DNA of 64,000 nt from Phycisphaerae bacterium. Its GTDB lineage: Bacteria > Planctomycetota > Phycisphaerae > Phycisphaerales > UBA1924. Below the pieces are notes generated by a model. The model made no database searches. It worked only from the letters and a program-made list of their open reading frames with translations, and was not told the DNA's origin. Position 1 is the stretch's first letter, and each line of letters starts with the position of its first letter. The translations under genes were made by a program, and so were the position numbers. Positions 12,248 through 49,864 of the stretch are shown piece by piece. Where the stretch lies: positions 124,001 through 188,000 of the forward strand of contig JAEUIZ010000056.1 of the NCBI GenBank assembly GCA_016793805.1, read 5' to 3'.

Positions 12248-13297
12248 TCACGAGCACCCCGCCGAGAAGACGTTGATGTAGCAGATGAAATCGTTGATGT
12301 TCAGAATGGGCGACACCGTGCTCCCGTCGCAGTTGCAATACGCGTCGCCTGCGGAGTACTTGTTCATGAAACAGATGAAGTCGTTCACCGTGAGTTGCGG
12401 GCTCGTCGTCGAGTGATCACAGTTGGAATAGCATTCCCTGAGAATCGCGTGTCCGACATACCCGCCCGCGCCGATCGAGGCAAACAGGCCAGAAGGAGGA
12501 TTGGTTTGCCCAGCCAGATTGAAGCCCCAGCCCACCACCCGGTCATCGGTTGTCAACGCCAATGCAAACTGGGACTTGGCGGCAATCGCTCGGTACGTGC
12601 CCGCGGGCGGGCTGCTTTGTCCATAGTTATTGGCGCCCCACGCGGCGAGCGTCCCGTCGGATCGAAGGCCGACGGCGAAGTTGATCCCGGCAGCGACGGC
12701 AACAAATGTTCCCAAAGGCACGCTCGTGTTCCCAAACGGATTGTAACCCCATCCAACCAATGTCCCATCCGCCCTGAGCCCGATGGAGAAGCCCGTTCCA
12801 GCTGCAGCATCGATATATGATCCGGCAGGAGCGACCGCTTCGCCGTTGTTGTTCGAGCCCCATCCGAGCAATGCGCCGTCCTCGCGGACTGCGAGGCCGT
12901 GAGTCGCGCCCGCGGACACCTTCATGAATGCCCCGGGCGGGACGTTGCCTTGCCCGTAGACATTGTCGCCCCATGCCACGAGGCTGCGATCGGATCGAAT
13001 GCCCACGCTCCACTTCAACCCGCCGTCGACGGCAATGAACGTCCCGGCTGGCACGAACAGGACGCCTCCCTTTCCTTCGCCCCACGCCGCAAGCGAGCCG
13101 TCGGCGCGAATCCCGATGGAGTGCCATCGCCCCCCGCTGACGGCGCGGAATGGCCCTTGGGGGAGCGGAGCAACTTGCCCGAAGGCGTTCGATCCCCAGC
13201 CGACCAGCTCGCCGGGCTGAGCGTGCGCGACGCGCACGCTCAGCCACATTGCGGCGGTACATAATAGCGCAGTCGTGGCAGGGTGCTTGCGTGTCAT
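12248..13297 (-). CDS. exported RCC1-repeat protein with dockerin-like tail
   Basis: A 349-residue exported protein. A signal peptide (MTRKHPATTALLCTAAMWL..., cleavage near AHA/Q) precedes about seven RCC1-like blades of the pattern VGWGSNxxGQxxxPxGxFxxVxAGxxHxxGLRxDGT, predicting a beta-propeller. The C-terminus has two cysteine-rich dockerin-like repeats (NCDHST...NDFICFMNKYSAGD and NCDGST...NDFICYINVFSAGCS). This resembles the tag that NCBI families call a GC-type dockerin, as I recall. The ATG overlaps the stop of the upstream RCC1 gene by four bases (ATGA), so it is coupled to that broken gene. The function is unknown; surface attachment is an inference from the tail. Confidence 0.85.
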   Translation of the reverse strand: MTRKHPATTALLCTAAMWLSVRVAHAQPGELVGWGSNAFGQVAPLPQGPFRAVSGGRWHSIGIRADGSLAAWGEGKGGVLFVPAGTFIAVDGGLKWSVGIRSDRSLVAWGDNVYGQGNVPPGAFMKVSAGATHGLAVREDGALLGWGSNNNGEAVAPAGSYIDAAAGTGFSIGLRADGTLVGWGYNPFGNTSVPLGTFVAVAAGINFAVGLRSDGTLAAWGANNYGQSSPPAGTYRAIAAKSQFALALTTDDRVVGWGFNLAGQTNPPSGLFASIGAGGYVGHAILRECYSNCDHSTTSPQLTVNDFICFMNKYSAGDAYCNCDGSTVSPILNINDFICYINVFSAGCS

Positions 13298-14578
13298 TCG
13301 ATCCCCCACAATCGGCGCGCTCGCTCGAAGCGTGCGAGAAAGCAACCGTAATCCATCGCGTCGAGCACGCGGTCGCCGTTGCAGTCGGCATTGCTGTTGC
13401 CGAGGCCGTGCATGATGTTGAACATCAGGATGTCACTGGCCGCGTATCGAAGAAGAGTCGACTGTCCGTCCGCATTTGCGAACGAGTCCGAACTGGCAAC
13501 ATCCTCGATGCCCAGGCCATGGTCGTAGTTGGCCGAATACCCAATCAATGGTCCCGCGGGAACAAAGCACTGATACTCATGGTTTCGGCCCCATGCGAAG
13601 ATGGTCCGATCTTCGAGTTGCGCGGTCGTGTGGTAGTATCCTCCATCCACGCGGATCAGATCTGCAGGTGCTGGGAATGGCTGTGGTGGTGGCGCATAGC
13701 ACCAGTCGTTCAGTGGGGGGCAGTTGTTTGGAGTGCATGCGCCAGAACAGGCATCGCCTGTGGATGATTGGCCGTACCACCCATGTCCCCAAGCGTCGAA
13801 CTCGTCGCTGTCGGGCCCGTTTGGTCGGATCACGACGCCGTGCTTGTGCCCGGCCGAGAAGGACGAAGCCCATCCAAGGTATGAATCTGTGACCTGGCAC
13901 TCGTCATCTGCTCCCCAGGCGTGCAACGTGCCATCGGCTCGCTGCGCCAGTCCCCAATGACCAGTGGCGGACACTGCGACGAAGCCCACATTCTCATTGT
14001 CGGGCAGTCCAGTCACGGTTGGGTTCCAGGGTCCAGCGCCGCACGGGCCGGTGCACAGGCCACTGTCGCCGCAGGTCAGTTCCGAAGTCCAGGGCATGAT
14101 TCGACCATCAGCGGCGCGGATCGCCACGCTCCAGTGTTCACCGGCTGCGATCGCGAGCGCCGCTCCAAGCGATGATGGCACGTTGCACGCGCCCACGAGT
14201 TGTCGCCCCACGCGACGACATGCCCATCGTCCGGCTGCCCGGGATTATCAATGATGGCCAGGCTATGGTGGTATCCAGCCGCAATCGCCCTGACGCTCCG
14301 AGTGTTCAGGATTGACGGAAGCGTTGTCTGTCCGAACTGATTGCTCCCCCACGCCACGACCGTTCCATTTGCGCGAATGGCGACGCTGTGCTCGAAGCCA
14401 GCCGCAACGGCGAGGTACTCATACTCCTGCGACTCTACGGGCGGATTGGCTTGACCGAAGGTGTTGTAGCCCCAACCGACGATCGGGCCTGTCTGCGCCC
14501 CCGCCCTACTCGGCCACGCCATCAGCGCGCAAAACACCAGAGAGAGAGAGAGAGAGAGAGAAGCATCCGCGTTGTCAT
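13294..14578 (-). pseudogene. RCC1-repeat exported protein, frame-broken, possibly phase-variable
   Basis: A coherent gene needs three frames. The ATG at 14578 sits six bases after an excellent GGAGGTGA ribosome binding site and begins MTTRMLLSLSLS, then runs through a (CT)11 tract. At this tract length the frame ends at a TGA within 20 codons. With ten or thirteen CT units it would read into VFCALMAWPSRAGAQ, completing a signal peptide, and then RCC1 blades (VGWGYNTFGQ, VVAWGSNQFGQ). A second break lies at a C triplet at 14192-14194: one extra base would continue VVAWGDNS into WGACNVPSSLGAA and the rest of the propeller. The end carries a divergent dockerin-like motif (NADCNGDRVLDAMDYGCF). 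The following RCC1 gene is an intact paralogue. It is either switched off by the repeat, decayed, or affected by assembly indels. Confidence 0.75.
14539..14560. repeat. (AG)11 / (CT)11 simple-sequence repeat in signal-peptide codons
   Basis: Eleven perfect dinucleotide units, read as CT on the coding (minus) strand, lie between the ATG of the RCC1 gene and the hydrophobic core of its signal peptide. Length changes by slippage would move the start codon in and out of frame. I noticed no other dinucleotide run of this length in the window. Confidence 0.9.
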
Positions 14579-14672
14579 CCGTCACCTCCAGTCCGCTGCC
14601 CGGCGATGGGCGAGAGACACACACGCAGTTCAACCCGGCAGCGTGAACAACGGCGCACGGCACAACGCCACC

Positions 14673-30056: not shown

Positions 30057-30758
30057 TCAGGTACACCCCGCCGAGAACTGGTTCAGGAAGCACACAAAGT
30101 CGTTGACGTTCAGCACCGGCGCCGCCGCCGAGCAGTCGCAGTTCGCCGACGGGTCGCCCACCGAGAACTTGTTGAGGAAGCACACGAAGTCGTTGACGTT
30201 CAGCACCGGGGGCGACGTGCTCGCGTCGCAGTTCGCCGGGCACAGCACCACCCGCGTGATCACCGCCGAGCCCGTCGTGATCCGAAGGCTCCCCACCAGC
30301 GCCGAGGGCGTGAGCACCACGTTCGTCAGGCTGAACGTCGCGAAGTTCCCCGCGTCGATCCCCGTCACCAGGTTTGCCGCGAAGTTCACCGTGATCCCCA
30401 GCAGCACCTGCGAGCCCGCCAGCGCCTCGTTCGCCAGCGTCACCGGGTGCGTCCCGGGGCAGTTCTCGGCCGTGCCGTTGAGGAACGCCGACGACCCCGG
30501 CTGCAGCGTCTCAAAGATCTGCGCCAGCGGCGTGGGCGTCGGGAACAGCGCCCCGAGGATCACCCCGCTCCCCACCGCGTTCCCCGTGATCGCGTACGTG
30601 TACCGATACGCCGGCGAGATCGGGTTCGGCGAACTCGATCGCATCTGCGCCAGCCCGTTCTGCAGCCGAACGTCCGTCAGGTCGATCGTCACCGACTGCT
30701 GCGCGAGCGCGCTCGAAGTCACCGCCAACACCGCCGCCAGGGTCGCACGATTTCGCAT
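30057..30758 (-). CDS. exported protein with dockerin-like tail
   Basis: A 233-residue exported protein: signal peptide (MRNRATLAAVLAVTSSALAQ), a beta-rich domain of about 140 residues with no recognised family (VTIDLTDVRLQNGLAQMRSS... LLGITVNFAANLVTGIDAGNF), then two dockerin-like repeats (NCDAST...LNVNDFVCFLNKFSVGD and NCDCSA...LNVNDFVCFLNQFSAGCT). The LNVNDFVCFLN core occurs twice almost unchanged. GGAGG precedes the ATG. It lies between the exporter operon and a PEP-CTERM gene, both on the same strand, with its own promoter-like element. Confidence 0.85.
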   Translation of the reverse strand: MRNRATLAAVLAVTSSALAQQSVTIDLTDVRLQNGLAQMRSSSPNPISPAYRYTYAITGNAVGSGVILGALFPTPTPLAQIFETLQPGSSAFLNGTAENCPGTHPVTLANEALAGSQVLLGITVNFAANLVTGIDAGNFATFSLTNVVLTPSALVGSLRITTGSAVITRVVLCPANCDASTSPPVLNVNDFVCFLNKFSVGDPSANCDCSAAAPVLNVNDFVCFLNQFSAGCT

Positions 30759-49468: not shown

Positions 49469-49864
49469 CTACTTGGCTTTTTTGGACCGGGACTTGCTCG
49501 CCGGCGCGCCCGCGGCGGACGGCGCGGCCAGAGTGGGAGAGGTTGGGGGAGGAGGGGGGGGAGGGGGGGGAGGGGGGGCGAGGCGGTCGATGGTGGCGGC
49601 GAGGGCGAAGTCCTTGGCCGTGATCCCGCCCGAGTCGTGGGTCGAGAGGGTGAAGGTGACCTTGTTGTAGCGGACAAGAATGTCCGGATGGTGGTTGGCC
49701 CGCTCGGCCTCTTCGGCGACCTTGTTCACCACCCGCATCGCGTCGACAAAGTTGGGGAACTGGAGGGTGCGCTGGATCGCACCGTTCAACTCGGACCACT
49801 CCGGGACGCTCGGCAAGGCGGCCTGGATCTCGGCGTCGGTCATCTTCGGCACGGGTGTGGACAT
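49469..49864 (-). CDS. 4a-hydroxytetrahydrobiopterin dehydratase-like (PCD/DCoH)
   Basis: A 131-residue protein. Residues 1-95 match pterin-4a-carbinolamine dehydratase: PEWSELNGAIQRTLQFPNFV, EERANHHPDILVRYNKVTFTL with the HHP motif, and ITAKDFALAATID. The family recycles pterin cofactor for aromatic amino-acid hydroxylases but is often present without them. The last 36 residues are unusual: about eleven consecutive prolines from three G-tracts, then SKSRSKKAK, a basic tail. It is divergent from gluQ, with 39 bases between the starts; GGAGGGC precedes this ATG. Confidence 0.87.
   Translation of the reverse strand: MSTPVPKMTDAEIQAALPSVPEWSELNGAIQRTLQFPNFVDAMRVVNKVAEEAERANHHPDILVRYNKVTFTLSTHDSGGITAKDFALAATIDRLAPPPPPPPPPPPTSPTLAAPSAAGAPASKSRSKKAK

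Follow-up and report, generated by a model that had tools for sequence, protein, structure and literature searches.

Signal-peptide microsatellites as a candidate frame switch in an exported RCC1-propeller gene family of a Phycisphaerae bacterium

The signal-peptide core of an exported RCC1-propeller protein, here referred to as gene A, is encoded by a (CT)11 microsatellite in the window, i.e. the whole stretch of 64,000 nucleotides that was analysed. It has paralogs in the same genome, with which it forms a family of exported RCC1-propeller genes whose signal-peptide cores are encoded by microsatellites that would be prone to slippage. The tract layout, read from the sequence, suggests with a probability of about 0.75 that the family is switched in frame by slipped-strand events at these microsatellites. 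Units would be gained or lost by slipped-strand mispairing during replication. In one length class out of three, start codon, signal peptide and mature protein would share a frame (ON), and the other two classes would end translation early (OFF), after 18 codons in the case of the window copy. The OFF state of gene A should also lower expression of the overlapping gene B through lost translational coupling. Frame switching by slippage would explain why two types of repeat share one position, why tract lengths are spread across frames and why the coding sequence is conserved.

Start, tract and frame breaks of the window copy

The (CT)11 tract stands on the minus strand between the Shine-Dalgarno sequence and ATG and the signal-peptide core of the RCC1-propeller gene, as had been described in a previous sequence-only reading (Table 1). 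The Shine-Dalgarno sequence claimed there is present; its distance from the start codon, given as six bases, is 3 nt from its last base and amounts to six only if counted from GGAGG. The ATG frame reads MTTRMLLSLSLSLWCFAR* and ends after 18 codons, which agrees with the claim of a stop within 20 codons, and the propeller frame reads ...SLSLSLSLVFCALMAWPSRAGAQ. The two frames are joined if 2n+1 is divisible by 3, i.e. for n = 10 or 13. Computed in this way, the 11 units are out of frame and 10 or 13 units would complete a signal peptide ending in SRAGA/Q, both as previously proposed. The propeller frame of the window copy was searched for a credible start of its own and none was found. A GTG at 14663 was rejected as another start on account of its acidic leader and the lack of a Shine-Dalgarno sequence.

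Table 1. Features of the two-gene cassette in the window
Feature	Position	Strand	Evidence
Shine-Dalgarno sequence GGAGGTGA of gene A	14582..14589	-	sequence
Start codon ATG of gene A (MTTRML...)	14576..14578 (ATG 14578-14576)	-	sequence; counterpart MRTRMM in C2 paralog
(CT)11 tract, coding for the Leu-Ser core of the signal peptide and out of frame with the mature protein	14539..14560	-	
Gene A in its frame 2: signal peptide after the tract (VFCALMAWPSRAGA/Q) and initial part of the RCC1 propeller	14198..14538	-	RCC1_2 1.2e-16
Second frame break in gene A, TGGGCG	14191..14197	-	gap versus C2 paralog
Gene A in its frame 3: remaining propeller sequence and a weakly dockerin-like C-terminus	13294..14190	-	RCC1-like 5.9e-14 (Pfam)
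Stop codon TGA of gene A	13296-13294	-	
Gene B, intact, coding for an exported RCC1-repeat protein that ends in a GC-type dockerin	12248..13297	-	RCC1_2 1.5e-43

The second frame break and the family of paralogs with a like layout were absent from the earlier reading. The break falls about 115 codons beyond the tract and divides the motif WGDNSxGACNVP between frames, so that the window copy as assembled has two interruptions. No slippery repeat is found at the site of this break, and a return of the tract to 10 units would therefore still give no full-length protein in this consensus. Being OFF at the tract and broken downstream, the window copy is a silent, possibly decaying member of the family in this consensus. 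The phase switch that had been put forward for it is well supported for the gene family and weaker for the window copy itself, because of the downstream break.

The stop codon of gene A overlaps the start codon of gene B as ATGA in the window. The overlap is present in all seven cassettes checked, as GTGA in C4 and as ATGA in the others. On the strength of this overlap, gene B is probably translationally coupled to gene A; it is open in all seven cassettes checked. The RCC1_2 scores of 60.4 bits for the first part of A and 146 bits for B (Pfam cut-off 22) place both proteins in the RCC1 repeat family. The dockerin_GC family (NF041540, NCBIfam cut-off 29 bits) matches B above its cut-off (33.5 bits) and A below it, as a weak match (17.1 bits, E 0.005). 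Structure prediction for the C53 A protein (mean pLDDT 73) gave a fold that matches RCC1-type propellers, e.g. BLIP-II and RCC1. Gene A thus resembles the bacterial RCC1-repeat protein BLIP-II (1jtd) in having an RCC1-type propeller, by Pfam as well as by predicted fold, and differs from it by the microsatellite in its signal peptide and by its dockerin-like C-terminus. A and B may have a role in binding outside the cell.

The G+C content of the cassette (window 12248-14580) is 60-65%, against about 70% in the surrounding sequence, and its codon use is atypical; it may be of horizontal origin. Elsewhere in the window, a 90-bp direct repeat in 1.9 copies (30067-30238) resembles dockerin-type repeats on its minus strand (NCD...LNVNDFVCFLN).

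A family of paralogs with two repeat units at one place

The genome, a draft assembly of 3.6 Mb in 59 contigs with a completeness of 82.7%, contains an expanded family of two-gene RCC1/dockerin cassettes, with more than a dozen RCC1 paralogs detected by protein search. A microsatellite occupies precisely the signal-peptide site in at least nine copies, as (CT)n in two of them and as (TCAC)n in seven. The second (CT)n copy lies on contig C2 in a duplicate of the entire two-gene cassette, 82% identical to that of the window. Its tract is (CT)9 following an interrupted stretch and is out of frame, and the gene is broken at the same downstream place as the window copy, in the opposite direction. 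In six further paralogs, the signal-peptide core SLTHSLTHSLTH... is encoded by (TCAC)n right after a conserved start of the type GGCAAGGAGGTCGCGATG; in the seventh (TCAC)n copy the start runs into the tract at the very end of contig C33.

Tract lengths were compared across paralogs and species. Between conserved flanks, the six (TCAC)n tracts measure 7.5, 9.5, 11.5, 13.5, 16.5 and 20.5 units, the 9.5-unit tract being preceded by an interrupted stretch. The frame is off by one in three of them and by two in two others, and it is kept in one. The lengths in the family are thereby spread over all three frames, and one of the eight readable copies is in frame when the CT pair is included. This single in-frame copy, C27b (L139, G000:C27), has 20.5 units and is interrupted later at a C11 run, which may be either another place of slippage or an artefact of assembly. 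None of the repeat-bearing copies readable in full is fully ON in this consensus. In the eight copies of this genome and in others, the number of repeats sets the frame between start and body, which is the layout of SSR-mediated contingency loci. As each of at least nine paralogs has its own tract, every copy would be switched separately and the number on display at any one time would be small.

The repeats were set against a census of 440 kb from six contigs of the assembly. The (CT)11 tract is the longest dinucleotide repeat in these 440 kb and the second longest occupies the same place in a paralog, which argues for more than chance. Apart from the two AG tracts, no dinucleotide repeat in the sample exceeds 13 nt, and apart from the two (TCAC)n tracts that it includes, no tetranucleotide repeat exceeds 17 nt. 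Throughout the genome, (AG)8 and (TCAC)4.5 tracts are confined to these signal peptides. A G-rich tract, with about four copies of GGGGGGGGA, is found at window 49545-49583. MutS, which would slow slippage at dinucleotide repeats, is present in the genome, and loss of mismatch repair was discarded as a cause on this ground.

Similar loci in other genomes and alternative explanations

Signal peptides encoded by (CT)n, mostly out of frame, are found at unrelated exported genes in other genera of the order and of the phylum. Within the order, a (CT)8 tract whose next base is not C occurs in 39 of 301 genomes. Out of 73 distinct CT tracts, 15 come after a Shine-Dalgarno sequence and a start codon and before a single long frame, and most of these 15 continue as signal peptides. 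The AG strand taken as control gave 3 such tracts and random placements 4.9% (binomial 2e-6, uncorrected for relatedness). Among 392 genomes of the phylum, a Shine-Dalgarno sequence and start followed by (CT)8 were found in 12 genomes and the reversed control in 1. Signal-peptide-like loci counted by hand, 18 elsewhere and 8 here, include 4 in frame out of 26, or 7 if three loci with an extra in-frame ATG are taken as ON. With free slippage 1/3 would be expected, which gives probabilities of 0.036 for at most 4 and 0.32 for at most 7 of 26. Genome G039 has two copies with 97% identity over 945 bp whose tracts are 16 bp apart in length; one copy is ON and the other OFF. The (TCAC)n tracts of seven other genomes of the order occur without the start and signal-peptide layout, which leaves the genome of the window as the only one with the tetranucleotide version. 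A scan of named genomes with three paralogs retrieved only distant homologs (28-37% identity) without repeats, and hence no orthologous locus in a named species.

Differences between the window and C2 copies fall mostly on third codon positions, each half of gene A being read in its own frame. The first half has a dS of 0.75 and a dN of 0.09 (dN/dS 0.12) and the second half a dS of 0.68 and a dN of 0.07 (dN/dS 0.10), both ratios being below that of the intact gene B (0.22). A relaxed codon constraint was looked for in the broken copies and was not found over either half. Such strong purifying selection downstream of the tract (dN/dS about 0.1) indicates that the repeat-bearing genes are not old pseudogenes and that the window and C2 copies were translated protein-coding genes through most of the period after their divergence; very recent loss of single copies may have occurred. 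It is for this reason unlikely that the repeat-bearing genes are decaying pseudogenes whose off-frame lengths and second breaks represent successive damage, although this would account for the further interruption seen in each of the window, C2 and C27b copies. The family does contain a plain pseudogene, the RCC1/dockerin paralog L146 (G000:C8:57000-61500) with several stops and frame changes, and its low proportion of in-frame tracts would also fit decay. On the other hand, selection on both halves of A has been stronger than on intact B since the window/C2 split, five other out-of-frame copies, all with (TCAC)n, retain 402-418 open codons, and decay accounts poorly for two repeat types at the same codons and for their recurrence in other genera.

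Errors of sequencing or assembly and recoding fit the data worse than slippage. If the true tracts were in frame and the second breaks were homopolymer indels, seven of the eight tracts would have to be wrong, and independent assemblies of other genera also contain out-of-frame tracts; this explanation is very improbable, even though microsatellites and G or C runs are typical places for such errors and contig C33 terminates within a tract. A frame scan of 440 kb (368 coding segments) flagged only two direct frame switches, at C2:151120 and at window 48134, the latter being the normal start of a clpS-like gene. Most other junctions of the scan look like artefacts of minus-strand stop handling. 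The low count is a weak control, as gene A was not recognised as coding by the scan owing to its atypical codon use. It is scarcely credible that slippage of the ribosome or during transcription, or the use of another start codon, allows the gene to be expressed from the out-of-frame tract. A further in-frame ATG does exist at three loci elsewhere (G037, G039 and G043), but the copies of the present genome are devoid of a plausible in-frame start with a Shine-Dalgarno sequence. The shift needed is moreover not the same in all copies (one base or two), so a fixed recoding signal would not serve.

Comparison with known contingency loci

The proposed slipped-strand switching has its closest counterpart in the opa genes of Neisseria, where pentanucleotide CTCTT repeats lie in the sequence coding for the signal peptide and where in-frame copies are likewise fewer than 1/3 (PMC13183285). 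Both are multi-locus families in which each copy has its own repeat, with a pyrimidine-rich unit, in the signal-peptide code, and in both the number of repeats sets the frame and few copies are in frame at once. The differences are that opa codes for an outer-membrane barrel and gene A for an RCC1 propeller with a dockerin-like end, that the unit has 5 nucleotides in opa and 2 or 4 here, with two units within one family, and that the present genes have a probably coupled second gene and belong to an environmental planctomycete. Switching is known experimentally for opa, whereas here it is deduced. No homology to the Opa barrel was found, the Pfam match being RCC1 and the predicted fold a propeller. 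Gene A would work like opa and is not a member of the opa family.

Tetranucleotide repeats of Haemophilus influenzae are located near the 5' end of the coding region. They form contingency loci, such as that of AGTC in mod (PMC3711429), and resemble the (TCAC)n copies in that a tetranucleotide repeat within the coding region sets the frame by its number of units. The latter differ by their unit, by their position within a signal peptide and by their occurrence in propeller-family paralogs, and they are candidates for phase variation.

The sequence-only reading knew of no such loci described in Phycisphaerae, and no report was found for Planctomycetota. In searches of literature that is open without subscription, phase variation and Phycisphaerae were not found jointly in any publication, nor was any title or abstract found about such loci for slipped-strand mispairing and planctomycetes. 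We lean slightly towards the broader reading that Planctomycetota run opa-like multi-locus contingency systems, in which each member of an exported propeller family would have its own CT or TCAC core, be switched independently and carry a coupled partner gene. Few variants would then be shown at a time, e.g. against phages or predators, or for attachment.

Repeat-driven multi-locus phase variation is known almost only in host-associated bacteria. Long repeats have been linked to host dependence (PMC4060949), and according to a 2025 review the apparent restriction of phase variation to host-associated bacteria may be a database bias, with ocean and soil bacteria forming a gap (PMC11868660). A paralog family in an environmental planctomycete, with two different microsatellites occupying the same signal-peptide codons, together with similar single loci across the phylum, makes the question of host association testable. 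For annotation, exported genes of such genomes that appear start-less or 'frameshifted' may be switchable and not broken.

A second, unrelated family of exported proteins was observed in genomes G039 and G043 (L011, L016, L020, L022, L087 and L102). Its members share the start ...LRTxFGS, after which the signal peptide contains a CT tract of between (CT)11 and (CT)22, with a length that differs in each copy.
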